Origin: a virus
Virus record (IMG/VR): IMGVR_UViG_3300022689_000116
Coordinates: 1 to 64,000 of that record
DNA length: 64,000 nt
Direction: 5' to 3' (one strand)
Positions 1-48,527 of this stretch are shown here, piece by piece. The notes under the pieces are model-generated. The model did no database searches. It was not told the origin of the DNA and was given only the letters and a program-made list of their open reading frames with translations. The position numbers and the translations under genes are program-made. The first letter of the stretch is position 1. The number at the start of each line of letters is the position of its first letter.

Positions 1-216
1 GAACTTATTGAAGCAACAGAAAATATTGTTGGTAATGACTGGTTTGAGGCTGATGGAACTCCGAATGTTATTAAGGTAGATGACTTTGAAGATTATGAAG
101 CTAAAGAGCAGTTTTTTAATGATACCGATAATAAAGATTTAATTATTACAAAAGGAGCAAGCTTTATAAGCGATGATGAAGATACTATTTTGAAAAAATA
201 TACAAAAAACAATTAA
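1..216 (+). CDS. C-terminal end of an unknown late protein (partial)
   Basis: An open frame enters from the left edge and runs 71 codons to a TAA at 214-216. The visible tail is acidic (DDFEDYEAKEQ, FISDDEDTILKKY) and ends in a short lysine-rich stretch. The next gene starts four bases later on the same strand, so it belongs to the rightward late operon. There is no recognisable domain in the visible part. Its position upstream of surface and tail genes suggests a virion protein, but that is inference only. Confidence 0.7.
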   Translation, partial: ELIEATENIVGNDWFEADGTPNVIKVDDFEDYEAKEQFFNDTDNKDLIITKGASFISDDEDTILKKYTKNN

Positions 217-817: not shown

Positions 818-2311
818 ATGAAAAAATTAATTTTTATACTGATGTTGCTTGTAGCATTTGTTGCTATTAAAGCACAAGTTATTCCATCTGGAGTTAGTGG
901 TTATCAACTTAGAACTAATGTGAATAATGCCTTTTCTGCACATGATGATTCTATTACATCTTTGCGTTATGCTACTAATCAGAATTATGGATTTATTTCA
1001 AGTCTTGATGATTCTATTAGTGAAATAAATGATTCTGTTGTAAATTTCAATAATTATATATCTAATATTAATGATTCTATTCCGGTATTACGTGGTCTTA
1101 TTGAAACTACTGTTAATATGGATTATGATACAATAGATTATCTTGACAATAGAGTTGATTCATCTAATATTAATATTTCAAGCTTACAAGATTCTATTCC
1201 TGTACTTAGATCACTAATTGGTAGTGGTGGTAGTGGTTCTATGGATTATGATACTATTGATTATGTTAATACAAGGATTGATTCGATTACACTTAGTTCA
1301 GTTGAAGCAGGAAGTATTGTTTATAAAGATTCTACTGATTATCCTCAATTACCTACTGGACTTGATACTACTTATTACCTAAATGCTACAAATAATTGGT
1401 CTGTTCCCGTTAGTGGTGGTGGTGGAAGTTCAGTATCTGTAATGTATTTTACGAATGCAAATGCTAAAGGAGATACTACTATAACTCATGGTGACTTTTA
1501 CGGTAAGGTTTTAGACGTGGCTGCTGATAGTAATTTTATAATGATTGGTAATACTTCGATCGTTCCTTCTGCAATAACTTTTACTGATTCTACACTAACT
1601 TATGGAACTGGTTTTTCTTCTGTTATCAATGTGGTTTACATAAGGGATTCAGTTGATTTGATTGTTCCTAGAAATTTACTAAATCCACTTGTTGCAAATA
1701 CTGTTGCTTATTATGCTTTTGAAGAAAGTAGTGGTGTTATTACAGATGCTACAGATAGTGCAAATGATGCTACAAGTTCAACGATTACAACTTATTCTGA
1801 AACCGGAATTGTTAATAATGCCATTACTCAAGCTGCAAGTGATGGTTCTGAGGTTCCTGTTTGGACATCATTTTCAAGACCTTTAAGTTATTCTGTTTGG
1901 ATTAACGTTCCAGGTGCTGTAACTGGTACTCAATATATTGTTGGTTGGAGTAATGCTGGGGGTCCTGCTCTTGCTATTACATCCACACAACTTCAATTTA
2001 TAAGACAGCGACAAGCTAATGTTTGTGATTATAATTTTGTTCCAACTGCTTCGACATGGTATCATATTGTATTTACTTATGATGCTAGTGGTAATTATGC
2101 CTTTTATGTTAATGGTAGTTCTGTTAAGACAGGAACGAGTAACGATGCTTCGATCAACTACGATTTAGATTTAAGAGTTGGTTCTAGAGATTTCCATACG
2201 GAATCTTTTATTGGAACAATGGATGAATTAGGTATATTTAATAAAGTACTTAGTCCTACTGAAGTTACAGAACTTTATAATAGTGGTTCTGGACTAACTT
2301 TTCCTTTTTAA
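818..2311 (+). CDS. Surface/fibre protein with signal peptide and C-terminal LamG-like lectin domain
   Basis: The 497-residue protein starts with a classical signal peptide (MKKLIFILMLL... ending AIKAQ, cleavage after about residue 20). Residues about 30-180 carry repeated DDSI/NDSI segments and a duplicated block (DSIPVLR.LI followed by MDYDTIDY), typical of a trimeric fibre stalk. Residues about 290-497 form a LamG/concanavalin A-like domain, with AYYAFEESSG, WYHIVFTYD, NG(S)SVK and GTMDELGIFNKVLS at the expected places. Such domains bind or modify glycans, so host capsule binding is the likely role. The signal peptide is odd for a phage virion protein. The alternative is a secreted enzyme or lectin expressed during infection. 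Confidence 0.7.
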   Translation: MKKLIFILMLLVAFVAIKAQVIPSGVSGYQLRTNVNNAFSAHDDSITSLRYATNQNYGFISSLDDSISEINDSVVNFNNYISNINDSIPVLRGLIETTVNMDYDTIDYLDNRVDSSNINISSLQDSIPVLRSLIGSGGSGSMDYDTIDYVNTRIDSITLSSVEAGSIVYKDSTDYPQLPTGLDTTYYLNATNNWSVPVSGGGGSSVSVMYFTNANAKGDTTITHGDFYGKVLDVAADSNFIMIGNTSIVPSAITFTDSTLTYGTGFSSVINVVYIRDSVDLIVPRNLLNPLVANTVAYYAFEESSGVITDATDSANDATSSTITTYSETGIVNNAITQAASDGSEVPVWTSFSRPLSYSVWINVPGAVTGTQYIVGWSNAGGPALAITSTQLQFIRQRQANVCDYNFVPTASTWYHIVFTYDASGNYAFYVNGSSVKTGTSNDASINYDLDLRVGSRDFHTESFIGTMDELGIFNKVLSPTEVTELYNSGSGLTFPF

Positions 2312-2323
2312 TAAATTAATGAT

Positions 2324-3979
2324 ATGAAGAAATTAATATTTATATTACTATTGTTTGTTCAAATTATTTCATTTGGACAGTATAGAACTGTACTTAGTGA
2401 AAGTCAAACTTTTATTGTTCCTAGTGATGCTAGTAATAATGAATGGGTTGGTACTATTAGATCATATCCTGAGGTTGAGTTATTAGGTACTTCTATTAAT
2501 TATAGTTTAAAAACTAATTTTCAAAATATTTATTCTGTAGCTGATAGTGGTACTATAGTTATTGCAAACGATATAAATTTAAATATAGGTTTAGATTCTA
2601 TTGAAGTTACTATTACCAAAGGAGCTATTACAAACGATATTTGGTTTTATATACGTTCTGTAGATTTTAACAATGTAACTTTTATTGATTTTGATGGTAC
2701 TTCTGGAGCTGGAACTAGAGCTAGTCCTTTGAATAATTTTGAAACATTTCATACAGGAGATACTATTCTTTGTAAGCGTGGTTCAAGTATATCGAGAACT
2801 CAATTATTTATAAGTGGTATTTCTAATATGTTAATAGGAAGTTATGGTAGTGGAGCAAAACCTATTGTAAGTTGTACTAGTAATGGAGGTAGAGCTATAA
2901 CTATAACTGATAATTCTGATAATATTACATTGAGAGAATTAGATGTAAAGGGCGAAGATTACATTCTTGATGCTGGTGGAAGTACAACTGTTAGTAATGG
3001 TATCTATGTTACTACAAACTCGGATAATGCTAAAATTCTTTATTGTGATATTCATAGGTTTGGTGGTGGGGTTAGTATGTATAATGGTTACATTACTGAT
3101 TTTTCTTGGAATGAAGTTTATAATATTGCTAATGATGGAGTGTTTTTTGCCAATGCTGCATCTATGAGTACTATTAGTATATTAGCCAATGCTAATTATG
3201 TACATGATGTAAATGATAATGATCAAATTTATGATAATGAAAGTCAAGCAAATGGTGATGGTTTTCAATCTGATCATATAGTTACCTATTCAAATAATTT
3301 TGTTGATCGAACGAGTTCTGATTTTAAATTTGCAATTATAGCAGGTAGTGTTGGATGTAATTTTATAAATAATTATTTCAATATGGGAACTGTTTACCAT
3401 AGACCTGCCGTTTACCCTATTACTTCTGGTCATTATTTTAAAGGTAATTATTTTAAAAATGGTGCTTTTGGAGTTTATAATTCAAGTGGTAATCAAACAT
3501 TTGAGTATAATATATTTGATGGATGTGATGATGTAGGTATATTTGGAGCAGGGGCAACACATAATGTTTATAACAATGTATTTTATAATTGTAATGCTGC
3601 ATTGAATACTGGTACTTATACGGCTAAAAACAATGTTCTTTTAAATGTTACAGGACTTGGAACTGGAACGACCACGTGGACTTATAATGTATATTATGGA
3701 ACGACTCCTGAAATAAGTGGAGCAACTAATTATAATTATAATCCTGCATTTATTAATTCTACTCTTGGAGATTTTAGAGTTTTAAGTACTTCTCCTATTG
3801 TTGATATTGGAACGGATGTTAGTTTAACAGTTGATTATTTTAATAATACAGTTCCATATAATACTATTCCTGATATAGGGGTATTTGAATATCAGGGTAT
3901 TGAAACACCTATTGATAATACTAAATATTATTTTAAAGTAAGACGTAATGGTTCTTACTTTTTTAGATATAATAATTAA
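2324..3979 (+). CDS. Secreted-type right-handed beta-helix protein, candidate receptor-binding or depolymerase protein
   Basis: The 551-residue protein begins with a signal peptide (MKKLIFILLLF... ending SFGQ, cut near residue 19) very like that of the gene before it. Residues about 120-480 contain many short repeats rich in N, G and aromatic residues (NNFE, NIT, SNGIYV, YCDIHRFGG, NNYFNMGTV, GNYFKNG, YNNVFYN), the pattern of a pectate-lyase-like parallel beta-helix. Phage proteins of this shape commonly degrade or bind surface polysaccharide. I see no catalytic residues I could assign with confidence. The start 13 bases after the LamG gene implies co-expression. Confidence 0.65.
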   Translation: MKKLIFILLLFVQIISFGQYRTVLSESQTFIVPSDASNNEWVGTIRSYPEVELLGTSINYSLKTNFQNIYSVADSGTIVIANDINLNIGLDSIEVTITKGAITNDIWFYIRSVDFNNVTFIDFDGTSGAGTRASPLNNFETFHTGDTILCKRGSSISRTQLFISGISNMLIGSYGSGAKPIVSCTSNGGRAITITDNSDNITLRELDVKGEDYILDAGGSTTVSNGIYVTTNSDNAKILYCDIHRFGGGVSMYNGYITDFSWNEVYNIANDGVFFANAASMSTISILANANYVHDVNDNDQIYDNESQANGDGFQSDHIVTYSNNFVDRTSSDFKFAIIAGSVGCNFINNYFNMGTVYHRPAVYPITSGHYFKGNYFKNGAFGVYNSSGNQTFEYNIFDGCDDVGIFGAGATHNVYNNVFYNCNAALNTGTYTAKNNVLLNVTGLGTGTTTWTYNVYYGTTPEISGATNYNYNPAFINSTLGDFRVLSTSPIVDIGTDVSLTVDYFNNTVPYNTIPDIGVFEYQGIETPIDNTKYYFKVRRNGSYFFRYNN

Positions 3980-3990
3980 TAATTAAAGTT

Positions 3991-4302
3991 ATGAAAACAG
4001 AAGTTGAAAAATATTTAAAAGATGCTAAGGGTAATAATTCTAGTACTAGATATTTTAGTTATTTATTACTTAAATTCTTTATGTGGTTTAACGCTCTTGC
4101 TTTACCTTTACTTGGAATATTTGCATTTGTATTAAAAGGAGAAGTTAATGCGATAACGATGATGCTAGGTATAAGTAGTGTGTGGTTAGTATTCAATGCT
4201 TTACTTGGAATAATGATATTTGCTCCTAAACAAATGGGTAAAGTTGAAGAAATTAAAGAACTTATTGCATTAGCTACTGGAAATAAAACTGAAAATAAAT
4301 AA
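3991..4302 (+). CDS. Two-TM membrane protein, holin candidate
   Basis: The 103-residue protein has a charged N-terminus (MKTEVEKYLKDAKG), two hydrophobic helices at about residues 29-49 (FMWFNALALPLLGIFAFVL) and 55-75 (ITMMLGISSVWLVFNALLGI), and a charged C-terminal tail. This is a holin-like topology. It lies directly before a cysteine-peptidase-like gene, and the pair resembles a lysis cassette. The holin role is inferred from size, topology and neighbour; no family-specific motif is visible. Confidence 0.55.
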   Translation: MKTEVEKYLKDAKGNNSSTRYFSYLLLKFFMWFNALALPLLGIFAFVLKGEVNAITMMLGISSVWLVFNALLGIMIFAPKQMGKVEEIKELIALATGNKTENK

Positions 4303-4306
4303 ATAT

Positions 4307-4882
4307 ATGATAGCACAAAGTTATATAGTAAAAGATTGGAAAGATATTCCTAATACTGGATTTTATCTTGTTTTTATTCGTAGTAATACATTTATAGCAA
4401 AGGTTATTCATTTAGGAATGTGGTTACTTCAATTCCTAAGGATTAAAGTCTATCCTGAGAAAGTTCCTCAACATAGTGATATTGTTTATAATGGCATTAG
4501 TATTGGAGCATTAGGTAAAGGTATTCATCCTCATTCATTACAATATCGTCATAGGCATACTAAGAAAGATACTGTTATATGGGTATTTGAACCTATTATG
4601 ACTAAACAAGAAAAGGATAAAGTTTGGAAATTTCTACTTGCTCAAGAAGGTGTTTCTTATGAATATACTAATTTTGTTTATCATGCTTGGAGAATATTCA
4701 CTGGTTATTGGAAAGGTCATACTGGTAGATTTTCGATTAATGCTTGGTATTGTGTAGAACTTAGTGCTGCTGCTATTAATACTGTATGGAAAGGATTTAT
4801 TAAAAAACCTTGGGAACTTACTCCTTATAGATTTATTAAAACTGTTGTTGAATATAAACATAAATTCAAAATACCAAAATGA
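4307..4882 (+). CDS. Permuted NlpC/P60 (YiiX-like) papain-fold protein, candidate endolysin
   Basis: The 191-residue protein shows a YiiX-like permuted order: a His motif (QHSDIVYNG, H56) first and the nucleophile motif (NAWYCVELSAA, C149) last. An aromatic segment YEYTNF lies between them near residue 120. Enzymes of this fold cleave amide bonds in peptidoglycan stem peptides or thioesters. The stop overlaps the next start (ATGATGAACATA), and the holin-like gene ends four bases upstream. A hydrophobic stretch at residues 29-45 could hold it at the membrane. Cell-wall cleavage is inferred from fold and context. Confidence 0.55.
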   Translation: MIAQSYIVKDWKDIPNTGFYLVFIRSNTFIAKVIHLGMWLLQFLRIKVYPEKVPQHSDIVYNGISIGALGKGIHPHSLQYRHRHTKKDTVIWVFEPIMTKQEKDKVWKFLLAQEGVSYEYTNFVYHAWRIFTGYWKGHTGRFSINAWYCVELSAAAINTVWKGFIKKPWELTPYRFIKTVVEYKHKFKIPK

Positions 4883-5259: not shown

Positions 5260-5916
5260 ATGGCTTCTTTAAAACAATTAGCTACTGAATATATTGATGC
5301 TTTAGGAAAGCCTTTTGATCATCTTTTATATGAAAGAATTAAAGCTCTTATCATACATGAACGATCAACTGAAATTAGACGTAGCGTTCAGAAATATGGT
5401 CTTGATGAAGAATTTCTTCAAAGATATAAGATTACATTAGTTCCGGTTGATGCTTCTGATTTATATGGTGTGAATAGTTATCATAAAGTTTTTAGAAGTG
5501 AGAATAAGATTGCTACTTTGATTAGAGTTCCTAGCGATAGTCCATTCTCTTATGTTGGTGCTGTAGATTTAACAGTTCCATTTCTTTATATTCAACCTTA
5601 TGCTTTAGGTAATATTGATTCTTTACCTGCTTTGAAAGATATTAATAAGTACAGTACTAGAAATGGTTATGTTTACGTTTATACTAAGAATGTTAATCTT
5701 AAAGAGTTAGTAGTTGAGGCACCTTTTGTTAATCCTCATTTAATTGATAATTCTAATTATACTGATGCTAGTATTCCATTTACAGATGATATGGAGTTTT
5801 TTATTAGTGAAGATATGATTCAGAACATTAAAATTAAACTTCTTAAAGGAGAACTATCTGTTACTAATACTTCTGATAAAGAAGTAAATATTGAAGAAGA
5901 TGAAAACGCTAGGTAA
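5260..5916 (+). CDS. Probable neck/tail ring protein, 218 aa
   Basis: The protein starts with a helical segment (LKQLATEYIDALGKPFDHLLYERIKALI) followed by a beta-rich region with many short hydrophobic strands, and ends in an acidic tail. Its place just before the P22 gp4-like and muzzle-type genes matches the small ring/adaptor genes of crAss-like phages. I recognise it as crAss-like by order and character rather than by a defined motif. The last 17 bases overlap the next gene. Confidence 0.5.
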   Translation: MASLKQLATEYIDALGKPFDHLLYERIKALIIHERSTEIRRSVQKYGLDEEFLQRYKITLVPVDASDLYGVNSYHKVFRSENKIATLIRVPSDSPFSYVGAVDLTVPFLYIQPYALGNIDSLPALKDINKYSTRNGYVYVYTKNVNLKELVVEAPFVNPHLIDNSNYTDASIPFTDDMEFFISEDMIQNIKIKLLKGELSVTNTSDKEVNIEEDENAR

Positions 5917-6799
5917 AGAAGAACTATATTCTGATTATATAGATGATATTCTAACTGAAATTAAAGGTTTAAGAACTTCTCTAAATGATCAAAGTAAATT
6001 AAAAGATCATTATTTAGAAACTATTATTTCTTATTCAGAATATTATAAATATAGTAAAAATAGTAAACCAATACCTAAAGATCAATTTATTGAAAATATT
6101 AAACATTCAATTATAAGTACCGTTTCTGATAGTTATACTTATGATTCTATTTCTAAACCTACAGATACTGAACATTTAAACATTTTTAAATCATTTATTA
6201 ATAATTTTGTTTATAGAAATAATAGGGTTAAATATCTTAATGGTAAAATTGAAGAACTAAAAACATATCTTATAAGCAAAGAAGATTATATTAAAATAAA
6301 TGATAGTTATAATCAAGAACTTGTTAAATTTCTTTTAGATGGTAATACTTATAGCCTTGGAAGTAGATTGGGAAATATTTATATAGCTGGTAAAGCTCGT
6401 TCTAAGAAGTCTATTGATTGGGGTGAGTCAAATAAGTATAAACAGCAATTACTTGACAGTGGTCAGATTCCCTATAGAAAAGAAGATTCTGAGAAAGCCA
6501 AAGCTCGTGGAGAAGATTATAAAGGTGTAATGTGGTATATATATAATTATAGTAAATATGTATATCATCTCAAATGGACTAAACCATTGTTTGTTAAAAA
6601 TATTAAACTTTTTAGTTTTATTCCATCTATTGCTAACAATACTAAAATGAGTATTGAAAAATTAAAAAATTGTTCTAATTTTAAAGATATTCCAAACCTT
6701 AATATAGGTATGGTACAAAAGATTAAACTTAGTACTGAATATGATAATGATCATTATCGTAAGTATTTAAATAAAAAAGTTAAAGACAATGAATTATAA
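5900..6799 (+). CDS. Conserved-type crAss-like late protein of unknown function, about 299 aa
   Basis: The frame extends upstream to a TTG at 5891, but the ATG at 5900 is the better start and still overlaps the previous gene. The N-terminal half is a charged helical region. The C-terminal half contains GSRLGNIYIAGKAR, SIDWGESNKYKQQLL and YKGVMWYIYNYSKY, a pattern I associate with a recurrent crAss-like virion-block protein. It is basic there, which would suit contact with DNA or RNA. It ends overlapping the next ATG. The exact role is not known to me. Confidence 0.55.
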   Translation: MKTLGKEELYSDYIDDILTEIKGLRTSLNDQSKLKDHYLETIISYSEYYKYSKNSKPIPKDQFIENIKHSIISTVSDSYTYDSISKPTDTEHLNIFKSFINNFVYRNNRVKYLNGKIEELKTYLISKEDYIKINDSYNQELVKFLLDGNTYSLGSRLGNIYIAGKARSKKSIDWGESNKYKQQLLDSGQIPYRKEDSEKAKARGEDYKGVMWYIYNYSKYVYHLKWTKPLFVKNIKLFSFIPSIANNTKMSIEKLKNCSNFKDIPNLNIGMVQKIKLSTEYDNDHYRKYLNKKVKDNEL

Positions 6800-7595
6800 T
6801 CTTGTTACATCTAAAGAAACTATTGGTAGAGTTTTTAATTCTTATAATATTAAATCTTCTACTTTTATACCAAAGGTTCCTCAGTGGGTTGGTGAAGCTC
6901 TTGGTAAACTTAAACTATACGTTAGTTTACAACCTATGGTAACTAAGATAGAAGTTTCTAATTATAGAGGCTTTGTTCCATCTGGAATTAAACGTATTGA
7001 CGCTGTTTTGTATGAGGGTAAGATATTACCTAGAGTTATAGGTAAACGTTTAGTTAATCCTAATGAGAATTTATTTGATCCTTTATATGTTAGAGATACA
7101 ATACAAAATGTAGAGTATGATGATGAAGGTAACATAACTCAAATAAGAACTGTTGAAAATACAGAGGTTACAGTTTCTGCTGATTATATTACTAGTCGTC
7201 ATAATTATATATTAAATGGAAGTGGTTATTTGGATACTTCTTTTGAAAGTGGTATCATATATTTATATTATGTTGGAATACCTCAAGAATATGATGAAAT
7301 TTCAGGTATTTATTATCCATTAATTCCCGATCTTGAATATTGTAAAGAAGCTATAGTTTGGTATATTCTTATGAACATACTTTATAGTGGATATATTCAT
7401 CCGCTTTTATCACTTACGGCAAATAATAGATATATTAATCCTGCTTTACAGTTTGATTATTATCAACCCAAAGCTAAGAATGAAAGTCTTAGACTTGATA
7501 GAGAACAAAGAGAATTACATAGTAGATTATGGAATTCAGTTGTGATTGATGCAAGTGATTTTGAACATTCTTTTCACCCTAAATATAGTGAGTAA
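6789..7595 (+). CDS. Tail tubular/head-tail adaptor-type protein (P22 gp4-like candidate), 268 aa
   Basis: The start overlaps the previous gene by 11 bases and the stop overlaps the next start (TAATG). The protein has a beta-rich middle (IKRIDAVLYEGKILPR, EVTVSADYITSRHNYILNGSGYLDTS, GIIYLYYVGIP). An alpha-helical end (DLEYCKEAIVWYILMNILYSG, SLRLDREQRELHSRLWNSVV) resembles the gp4/gp6-like connector fold of short-tailed phages. Its place immediately before the giant muzzle-type protein supports a neck or tail-nozzle role. The assignment rests on layout and secondary-structure feel. Confidence 0.5.
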   Translation: MNYNLVTSKETIGRVFNSYNIKSSTFIPKVPQWVGEALGKLKLYVSLQPMVTKIEVSNYRGFVPSGIKRIDAVLYEGKILPRVIGKRLVNPNENLFDPLYVRDTIQNVEYDDEGNITQIRTVENTEVTVSADYITSRHNYILNGSGYLDTSFESGIIYLYYVGIPQEYDEISGIYYPLIPDLEYCKEAIVWYILMNILYSGYIHPLLSLTANNRYINPALQFDYYQPKAKNESLRLDREQRELHSRLWNSVVIDASDFEHSFHPKYSE

Positions 7596-45904: not shown

Positions 45905-48001
45905 TTAATCAAACAGGGAAGGTTGATTCAATTCATTACGAATACGTTTCTTAGAACCAGCCTTACGCTTAACATTAGTTTCTATTTGATTTATGATTTT
46001 ATTAGCTTCTCTTTGATAATATAGGTAATCAATATTATAATCTTCCATATTGTCTTTATGAAAATATCTATTAAATATTGTAACCTTTTGACCAGCACAC
46101 ATATTAGCACCATTACCATTAAGATTATTCTTTTTAATTTTAATCAATGAACCACCATTAGTACTGATATAAAACCTAACATTACGTTGAGGATATTCTG
46201 TAATAACCTGACCATTTATAACTCTTATATATTTAAGTGCAAATTCTCTACCAATATTATTAGTAGTACAAAAATCATAAATATCAGTATGTTTACGTAG
46301 AGTTTCAGATACAGAAATACCATCTTTAAAATAATTTATAATGGCTCTAGCTACAATAGGTTTATCAAAACCTTTTTGTAAATCTTCATAATAAAGCTTA
46401 TCATGCAAAGCACTTTTTCGTTTAAGATGTTTTTCTTCATTGTATTCACCTTCATGTTCTTTAACAGCAAAATAAGCATTTACATCTCTACGAACATATA
46501 AAGAATAATTATTAAATTCAAGATTTAAACTAACATCTTTTTGCCATTGCTCACAAGTCTTATTATAAATCTCTTGTTTATCATTAGGAACCAAACATAA
46601 TATACCATCTGTATTAGCAGATATAGTTTTAATACCAATCAATGACAATCTTTCTACCAACATCATTAAAGCAAGTTGTCCATTAATAGTAGTTTGAAAA
46701 GTACATTGAAGGTCATAATAAGGACCGAATTCAAAAGCAAATTTACCATATATAATATTAATTGTATATTTAAGAGTTAAAGCTTTTACATAATCTCCTT
46801 CCTGTTTACCAGTAATTCTATCATCTGTTATAAATTCAAACAATGTTAAAAAGTATGGGTGCATATGTTTTGGTTTAACCTTATTAGTAATTATAAGACT
46901 AGGATAATAACTACTAACATCAGCATCAATTATTTTAACATTGTTGGAACTTCTATAGACACCGGGTAAATCAACAGAATGAATCCCTCCAGATTTAATA
47001 TTATATTCTGTACCATCAAACACAAAATTAATACTAAGTTCTTTAGTTGTTTTAACAGTTGTATGATATACTTTATCTCTAAGGTCTTTTAATTCTTTAG
47101 TTTTAAACTGAATTTTATCTGATATACAATCTGAAAGTTTAACATGGTTTCTATAAGTTTTAGAACCATAAAAATCTTTGTGACTTATACCAGTTTTATC
47201 AAGATAAAATTTCTGAAAAATACGATCTCCAATTTTAGCCTGAGAAGCACTATCAACATTAATACCATATTTAGCACCAATCTTAAATCTTAGTTCAATA
47301 TCATCATGTAGATAATAAAACAATTCTCCAACACCCAAAACATCATTACGATTATAGATTTTAAGATCAGGAATATATTCTTTAACTAAATATCTATCCC
47401 AATCATCTATATTAGAAATAAATCTTTCATCATAAAAATGTTTATCAAGGTCGCTTATGGGAGGTAATTCAAAGGTTATAATATCATACCATTTAAGATT
47501 AATAAGAGTCTGCTTTAAAGATTTTCTAACTTTATCCAAAGAAGGTATTTTTTGAACATCTATACTTTTATAGTTAGCATTAAATCTTCTAACATACTTA
47601 AACTTGTCTAAATTCCGAAGTATTTCTTTATCAGTTTCAATGAGTTCTTTACTAAAGTTATATATCTCCATATTAAACTTTTTAATGCTATAATCTTTAG
47701 TATAATTCATAGCAATAAAATTAAGGAGCATATTATCATAGTCATTATTATTAAAACCAGCAAGATAATTACCGGAAAATGTAAAAGATAAAATCTTAGC
47801 AGTATCATCTTTTTCATAACCTTCTACAGAACTTATTTCAAATATTATATAAGGAATACTTTCAATCAATTTAATAGCTTCAAGTCTGCTAATTTTTTCT
47901 ACATCTATTTTTTTACGAATAGCGTGGTAATCTTCATAATCTATAAAGACAGCAGAAAAATAATTTTTAAAAACTTCGCAATCATAAAGATAACATTTCA
48001 T
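45905..48001 (-). CDS. Family B DNA polymerase with 3'-5' exonuclease domain, 698 aa
   Basis: The exonuclease part starts with YDCEV (D7, E9) and includes AGFNNNDYDN and YNRNDVLGVGEL. Polymerase motif A is IDADVSSYYPSLI (near residue 365), motif B is KYTINIIYGKFAFEF and motif C is ISANTDGILCLV. It is shorter than cellular PolB enzymes, as is usual for phages. In motif C the common DTDS is NTDG, but the key Asp is kept. The protein ends NQPSLFD, which resembles a bacterial beta-clamp-binding peptide. It overlaps the end of the lipoprotein gene by 20 bases. Confidence 0.9.
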   Translation of the reverse strand: MKCYLYDCEVFKNYFSAVFIDYEDYHAIRKKIDVEKISRLEAIKLIESIPYIIFEISSVEGYEKDDTAKILSFTFSGNYLAGFNNNDYDNMLLNFIAMNYTKDYSIKKFNMEIYNFSKELIETDKEILRNLDKFKYVRRFNANYKSIDVQKIPSLDKVRKSLKQTLINLKWYDIITFELPPISDLDKHFYDERFISNIDDWDRYLVKEYIPDLKIYNRNDVLGVGELFYYLHDDIELRFKIGAKYGINVDSASQAKIGDRIFQKFYLDKTGISHKDFYGSKTYRNHVKLSDCISDKIQFKTKELKDLRDKVYHTTVKTTKELSINFVFDGTEYNIKSGGIHSVDLPGVYRSSNNVKIIDADVSSYYPSLIITNKVKPKHMHPYFLTLFEFITDDRITGKQEGDYVKALTLKYTINIIYGKFAFEFGPYYDLQCTFQTTINGQLALMMLVERLSLIGIKTISANTDGILCLVPNDKQEIYNKTCEQWQKDVSLNLEFNNYSLYVRRDVNAYFAVKEHEGEYNEEKHLKRKSALHDKLYYEDLQKGFDKPIVARAIINYFKDGISVSETLRKHTDIYDFCTTNNIGREFALKYIRVINGQVITEYPQRNVRFYISTNGGSLIKIKKNNLNGNGANMCAGQKVTIFNRYFHKDNMEDYNIDYLYYQREANKIINQIETNVKRKAGSKKRIRNELNQPSLFD

Positions 48002-48527
48002 AATCTTTTCTTTTAATATATTTTTTATAAGTTACTTTATTATACATTAAAGAATACAGCTTATAATCTTCTATCTTTATGATCGCCCTTACTAAATCTA
48101 AAGTACATACATCTTTTATCGGAGTATCTTTATCAATATTTAATTCTTTACATACAAGATTTACATAATTTTTAGAATTGTTTTCAAAAGGAGGAGCATA
48201 AACATAGATTAGTTCTCTAACTGTACTTTCAGGTTTCAAATAACTTGATCTTCCAGTTTGTTTATAAGTTATATCTTTAACTAAAGCATAATATCCATCT
48301 TCAAGTGTTTTGAAATATCTAAATCCAGACTTTCCAACAGGTCTTAGATTACCAGGATTATTACGTTTTGAGGCTATAGTTTTAAGATCACTTTTATCAA
48401 CATCGAAATTAATTTCAAATCTTTCTTTATCAATAGTTATAATATAATCTTTATCGTAATTCTCATTACAATGTAATTTAGATATAGTACAACTAGAAAT
48501 CAATAAGATAAACATTAATTTTTTCAT
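47982..48527 (-). CDS. Predicted lipoprotein with a lysozyme-like NNPGNLR domain, 181 aa
   Basis: The N-terminus MKKLMFILLISSC is a lipoprotein signal with the lipobox ISSC (C13). From residue about 55 it reads NNPGNLRPVGKSGFRYFKTLEDGYYALVKD and then STVRELIYVYAPPFENNSKNYVNLVCKEL. This is the pattern of a muramidase/transglycosylase-like family found in phage structural or lysis proteins. An envelope-anchored cell-wall enzyme inside the replication block is unexpected. Possible roles are superinfection exclusion, envelope remodelling or early lysis preparation. The domain call is by pattern. Confidence 0.65.
   Translation of the reverse strand: MKKLMFILLISSCTISKLHCNENYDKDYIITIDKERFEINFDVDKSDLKTIASKRNNPGNLRPVGKSGFRYFKTLEDGYYALVKDITYKQTGRSSYLKPESTVRELIYVYAPPFENNSKNYVNLVCKELNIDKDTPIKDVCTLDLVRAIIKIEDYKLYSLMYNKVTYKKYIKRKDYEMLSL

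Follow-up and report, generated by a model that had tools for sequence, protein, structure and literature searches.

The window analysed here is the whole 64,000-nucleotide stretch, which makes up positions 1-64,000 of a virus record 80,709 bases long, with a GC content of 28%. The phage is placed as Crassvirales-type by its TerL, its MCP and its ring proteins, all of which are present, and its host is probably a member of the Bacteroidota. Near the start of the window, two consecutive open reading frames (ORFs) on the same (+) strand encode proteins of 497 and 551 amino acids (aa), each opening with a putative Sec leader. In-frame stops lie five codons (497-aa ORF) and four codons (551-aa ORF) 5' of the respective ATGs, and thereby fix the start sites of both. 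The features of the region are as follows:

221 to 802, + strand: 193-aa gene just 5' of the LamG gene, with no assigned function and no leader
818 to 2311, + strand: 497-aa fibre-type protein with a Sec leader, a heptad (coiled-coil) stretch and a C-terminal LamG domain
818 to 874, + strand: Sec/signal peptidase I (SPI) leader of the LamG protein, 19 residues, predicted cut before Gln (between KA and Q)
986 to 1090, + strand: stalk-like heptad stretch of the LamG protein, residues 57-91
1850 to 2266, + strand: LamG domain (Laminin_G_3), residues 345-483 (PF13385, E 4e-19, 69.7 bits, cut-off 27.6)
2324 to 3979, + strand: 551-aa protein with a Sec leader and a suspected parallel beta-helix
2324 to 2377, + strand: Sec/SPI leader of the 551-aa protein, 18 residues, predicted cut before Gln (between FG and Q)
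3770 to 3895, + strand: weak choice-of-anchor-Q match, residues 483-524 of the 551-aa protein (19 bits, cut-off 25, E 0.0013)
3991 to 4302, + strand: 103-aa membrane protein, putatively holin-like from its position and hydrophobicity, matching a TM-protein model below threshold
4307 to 4882, + strand: 191-aa gene that, judged by eye, may encode a papain-like lysis enzyme of permuted type
5260 to 5916, + strand: Crassvirales tail ring protein 2 (PF25702, E 2e-18)
6789 to 7595, + strand: Crassvirales tail ring protein 1 (PF24228, E 4.1e-25)

The pair thus sits within the virion gene block, followed in the 3' direction by the small membrane protein, the function-unassigned 191-aa gene, another hydrophobic protein of small size and finally the genes for the tail rings, with ring 2 ahead of ring 1. 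The 191-aa gene gave no match in Pfam, NCBIfam or PDB and one weak PHROG match (E 0.0075), and among six genes of the window none matched an anti-phage-defence model.

Both leaders have a positive n-region, a short hydrophobic core and a small residue at -1, followed by Gln at +1. The leader of the LamG protein reads MKKLIFILMLLVAFVAIKA, with QVIP as the predicted mature start, and that of the 551-aa protein reads MKKLIFILLLFVQIISFG, with QYRT following. A Q-rule, by which the SPI cut falls before Gln, is described for Bacteroidetes in the available portions of two reports (PMC5837995; PMC10653852). Leaders were called by our own rule-based callers rather than by SignalP; the first rule rewards Gln at +1 and the second is blind to it. 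The first rule called 5 of the 86 ORFs in the 80.7-kb record. Besides this pair, classed as SPI leaders and the only ones with Gln at +1, it picked out two proteins with a lipobox and a single TM-like start. Shuffling of residues 2-45 gave 1.6 called ORFs per genome under this rule, 0.06 with Gln; two Gln leaders were found in none of 300 shuffled genomes, and a Gln leader in none of 1,206 internal 45-mers. When the pair alone was shuffled (3,000 times each), any call was returned in 259 and 164 cases and one of the Gln type in 23 and 18, such frequent calls being due to the hydrophobic N-termini of both proteins. The second rule called 4 of 83 ORFs (the pair and the two lipobox proteins) vs 0.38 in shuffles. 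A first-pass annotation of this DNA had described two consecutive ORFs with Sec leaders and proposed a signal-peptide prediction as the check; both leaders were called by both rules, with Gln leaders near absent from genomes shuffled under the first, and the description is borne out. We consider Sec export of both proteins likely and, on the evidence of their N-termini, well supported.

Two details of that description need adjustment. The cleavage sites had been given as KAQ and FGQ; the SPI-type leaders are confirmed, but the position is off by one, as the predicted cut precedes the Gln. The Gln-blind rule sets the LamG site at residue 16, so the exact sites rest on the Q-rule, and cleavage of the pair by signal peptidase is best regarded as probable. 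The near-identical MKKLIFIL starts had also been pointed out, and the eight residues are indeed identical, but their codons differ at three of the eight positions, always synonymously, and MKK[LF]IFI starts occur in at least 119 stretches of viral contigs. The identity therefore means little, and a recent leader duplication between the two genes was rejected on the same grounds.

The identification of the first protein as a LamG protein holds. Through PHROG its LamG region is also linked to one family of virion structural proteins (phrog_8510, E 4.2e-8), as well as to two function-unassigned families, and its heptad stretch has hydrophobic residues (I/L/V/M/F class) at 10 of 10 a/d positions over 35 residues, a score reached by none of 300 shuffles. 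The heptad scan of the 551-aa protein was unremarkable (15 of 300 shuffles reached its score). The proposed beta-helix of this second protein was not substantiated: no Pfam, PHROG or PDB match was obtained, the choice-of-anchor-Q match lies below its cut-off, and single-sequence AlphaFold models were unusable, with a pLDDT of 32 for this protein and 34 in a second model. In the collections searched, the 551-aa protein had no relatives and the 497-aa protein had matches around its LamG end only, its N-terminal 135 residues giving matches of E 0.3 or worse. Virion membership of the pair is for this reason proposed by analogy.

For the analogy, sixteen isolates were read in whole or in part. Thirteen are Cellulophaga phages, and the other three are crAss001 (50 kb), B40-8 and FCL-2. 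Leader-bearing fibre cassettes occur in eight of the sixteen (phi10:1, phi19:1, phi13:2, phi19:3, phi46:3, phi18:3, Nekkels_1 and Ingeline_1), a fraction that gives no base rate, since the isolates were selected by hand or for their resemblance to a gene with a leader; five of the eight were chosen by their match to the leader-bearing gp093 of phi10:1. Leaders were absent from the fibre region in the parts read of phi38:1, phi14:2, phi18:1, phi46:1, phi17:2, crAss001, B40-8 and FCL-2. Gln leaders lie outside the fibre region in phi38:1, phi14:2 and FCL-2, and phi14:2 has two leader genes outside its fibre-region block.

Three of these cassettes, gp091-gp095 of phi10:1, gp101-gp104 of phi19:1 and gp085-gp087 of phi18:3, comprise 12 proteins. 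As with the window pair, these marine phages (phi10:1 and phi19:1 of the Assiduviridae, phi18:3 of the Pachyviridae) encode consecutive fibre-region proteins that each carry a Sec leader, and Gln stands at +1 in 11 of the 12 (by rule or by eye), with Lys in phi19:1 gp104. Eleven of the 12, all except phi10:1 gp095, bear the GenBank note 'annotation based on experimental MS/MS proteomics analysis', and it is on such notes rather than on the underlying MS data that the evidence is based. The original Cellulophaga proteomics paper is reportedly that of Holmfeldt et al. from 2013. These annotations contradict the earlier premise that a cleavable leader is out of place on a virion fibre. Within the fetched parts of phi10:1 and phi19:1, the MS/MS note is attached to 8 of 9 cassette leader proteins and to none of eight further proteins there that were called as leader, lipobox or TM (Fisher test), a contrast confounded by the smaller size, and so harder detection, of the latter eight. 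MS detection of the cassette proteins could also reflect exported protein adhering to virions. The cassette phages differ from the window phage in belonging to other families and having a known host, and their cassette proteins gave no match to the window pair in the searches made.

Within the Crassvirales themselves, the order to which the window phage is also assigned, phi14:2 and crAss001 have lectin- or lyase-type proteins in the virion block near lysis genes, but unlike the window pair their fibre-region genes have no leader. The MS-annotated virion proteins of phi14:2, including a related lyase, are leaderless, and leaders are thus not required for Crassvirales virions.

Given these observations, we propose that the pair act as adhesins of the fibre or spike type, travel by an extracytoplasmic route and are docked to virions at or after lysis, a reading to which we assign a probability of roughly one half. 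The two proteins, encoded beside tail and probable lysis genes, would cross the inner membrane through the host Sec system. Host signal peptidase I would cleave each just before the Gln, host glutaminyl cyclase would close the exposed Gln to pyroglutamate, and both proteins would fold in the periplasm. They would be held there until lysis, then meet virions and dock; periplasmic retention is suggested by the lack of a detectable T9SS sorting domain, neither protein giving a PF18962 or TIGR04183 match at E 0.01. Docking at or after lysis, and the order of the steps as a whole, are what we infer. Spikes can join particles outside cells in other phages, as for the P22 tailspike and the T4 fibres.

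Related viral records indicate how widely such leaders are distributed. Ring 2 was found in 18 of 29 records, and a single-sequence ring-2 search of viral contigs gave no match. Besides the present record and one of 88.6 kb with an MCP identity of 59%, whose fibre region has no leader, 16 ring-2 records supplied 17 upstream stretches (about 6 to 19 kb per record), in which no leader was called among 212 ORFs of at least 80 aa by the first rule or among 197 ORFs of at least 100 aa by the second, although some stretches may fall short of the whole fibre region. Across 80 MCP-selected loci, the second rule called leaders on 26 of 785 ORFs, five with Gln at the picked site, among them a fibre-like protein (L074:8357); 21 of the 26 are 112-143-aa genes 5' of the MCP. 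Leader-bearing late proteins are found in three other Crassvirales-type contigs, L074, G029 and G031, the last two reached through an MKK[LF]IFI scan that is by design biased to leaders. G029 has five leader genes between its MCP and ring 2, including one LamG protein; the rule finds Gln in four, and in the remaining one, which encodes a GDSL hydrolase (SA before Q), it was assigned by eye. They directly precede a small membrane protein and then an endolysin (phrog_465, E 1.4e-26; Pfam M15 match below cut-off). Four further loci of the G029 type, with 10 kb available past the MCP, included a Gln leader in one only (L285), on a 136-aa protein. Three more contigs (L131, L213 and L222) carry two to four leader genes in a row, with PHROG matches to tail or fibre families for some. 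The trait is patchy, given that none was found 5' of ring 2 in the 16 related records. G031 has three leader genes in its late region, and one of their products, of 777 aa, carries a C-terminal T9SS sorting domain (PF18962 at 37.6 bits and TIGR04183 at 37.1 bits, each above cut-off), which argues for outer-membrane crossing in at least one Crassvirales-type phage.

This last case, together with the leader on the GDSL hydrolase of G029 and the Q-rule leaders of the pair itself, would also fit secreted, non-virion proteins that act on or bind surface polysaccharide or block further phage adsorption. We regard that explanation as unlikely, though it deserves serious attention: three isolates have leader proteins annotated from virion MS, the window pair has no T9SS domain that we could find, and the heptads of the LamG protein are fibre-like. 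The first-pass annotation had offered secretion during infection or a reused host leader as the two ways out. Its implication of Sec export agrees with the Q-rule leaders, whereas the choice that it posed between virion fibre and exported protein is a false one.

The reuse of leaders can be followed in the Cellulophaga phages. Seven gp093-type genes are 95-100% identical over residues 1-60, while their C-terminal parts range from near-identical down to 14-24%. One lyase part stands behind three different leaders, in phi10:1 gp093, phi46:3 gp081 (93.5% identical to phi10:1 gp093 over residues 38-744) and Ingeline gp32 (48.6%), and the phi10:1 lyase part also follows leaderless N-termini in phi14:2 and phi17:2. 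In phi13:2 and phi18:3, lyase and spike parts are fused to a leader module; relatives of these parts (31% and 27% identity) are encoded by separate genes with leaders of their own in phi10:1, for the phi13:2 lyase, and phi19:1. C-terminal parts are exchanged from phage to phage, and leaders are found again after such exchanges.

Such comparisons bear on the idea that the leader was inherited from a host secreted protein and is presently functionless. A chromosomal gene of Flavobacterium kayseriense does start much like phi10:1 gp093 (48% over residues 1-56), and amino-acid changes are common in gp094-type leaders, where pairwise codon differences number 81 nonsynonymous vs 78 synonymous and the case for selection is weakened. 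Against this, the leaders of the seven gp093-type genes have 8 of 20 codons synonymously variable and no amino-acid change, where 129 of 171 possible single changes would alter the protein; lyase genes that are fused or split in different ways again carry leaders; and the base composition of both window genes matches the phage and gives no hint that they were recently acquired from another genome. We therefore hold a functionless relic to be highly improbable. Least probable of all is an uncut N-terminal hydrophobic segment serving as a virion or membrane anchor, which would account for virion association without export but fits poorly with leader lengths and c-regions suited to SPI, with Gln at +1 in the pair and in nearly all of the MS-annotated phages' cassette proteins, with different leaders on the same C-terminal part, and with h-regions shorter than a usual TM helix (the longest runs free of charged residues, His, Asn and Gln being 14 in the LamG protein and 9 in the 551-aa protein).

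Extending the extracytoplasmic route beyond the window, it can be tentatively suggested, at somewhat less than even odds, that some Bacteroidota phages of several families assemble receptor-binding fibres outside the cytoplasm by Sec export (in one case with a T9SS tag), SPI trimming and a pyroglutamate cap, and that the fibres join virions no earlier than lysis. The usual teaching is that tailed phages make their fibres in the cytoplasm; exported yet virion-bound fibres would, if real, add a step to phage morphogenesis and tie fibre maturation to host secretion enzymes. Phages that are unrelated but infect one host could then trade fibre modules freely, as is hinted at by the cassettes that Cellulophaga phages have in common, and the passage of fibre cassettes between unrelated phages would be easier to explain.

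Parts of this picture are already known from the available portions of earlier reports. Secreted Bacteroidota proteins that follow the Q-rule have the same leader form and site as the pair and are host rather than phage proteins (PMC5837995); the word 'phage' is absent from the main text of that paper. Porphyromonas gingivalis phages carry five Q-rule genes whose predicted leaders expose Gln, like those of the window pair, and these are of unknown function and not reported as virion fibres in the portion available (PMC10367356). No report of Sec leaders on virion fibres was found in the literature searched, subscription papers being outside its scope, nor in the accessible parts of PMC8143477, PMC4615864, PMC10367356 and PMC5723332. 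The term 'signal peptide' does not occur in PMC8776804, which describes several Cellulophaga families, or in PMC13288928, a paper with virion MS of phi18:1, phi38:1 and phi18:4. Signal peptides have been counted in other phages: for a pair of Bacteroides phages the accessible parts of PMC5723332 give two in one and one in the other, and those of PMC4615864 give a single one for a Polaribacter phage.

A protein encoded in another Crassvirales-type viral contig (G031) combines a Sec leader with a C-terminal sorting domain, matched by the profiles PF18962 (37.6 bits) and TIGR04183 (37.1 bits), and judged from its sequence it is a candidate phage-encoded T9SS cargo.

L251:4387-6717 (G031:42387-44720), 777-aa protein, Sec leader plus T9SS type A C-terminal sorting domain

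Leaders were also found in Flavobacterium phage FCL-2, whose protein is presumably similar to host secreted tail-fibre-domain proteins, and in a host chromosome.

L275:45363-45806, 147-aa leader protein of FCL-2, starting after the cut with QVGIATTTPTETLDVNG
L277:8001-10049, Flavobacterium kayseriense chromosomal gene, leader at its start close to that of gp093 of Cellulophaga phage phi10:1

The window phage itself encodes two lipobox (SPII-type) proteins.

L001:2937-3509 (record 65937-66509), just upstream of terminase
window 47982-48527, minus strand

Many relatives carry a 112-143-aa leader-bearing gene at the position of the first one, before terminase, and the gene at that position is possibly a spanin.

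The record end truncates one leaderless gene, LamG-like by eye, and a Pfam search of the fragment gave no match; the record IMGVR_UViG_3300022689_000116 may represent a circularly permuted genome.

L001:16893-17708 and window 1-216, leaderless gene truncated at the record end

Leader-bearing proteins of about 140-470 aa with Gln at +1 occur in further viral contigs, where nearby genes appear head-like, as judged by eye only.

L154:5669-6124
L167:5927-6364
L184:4039-5479
L185:2648-4066
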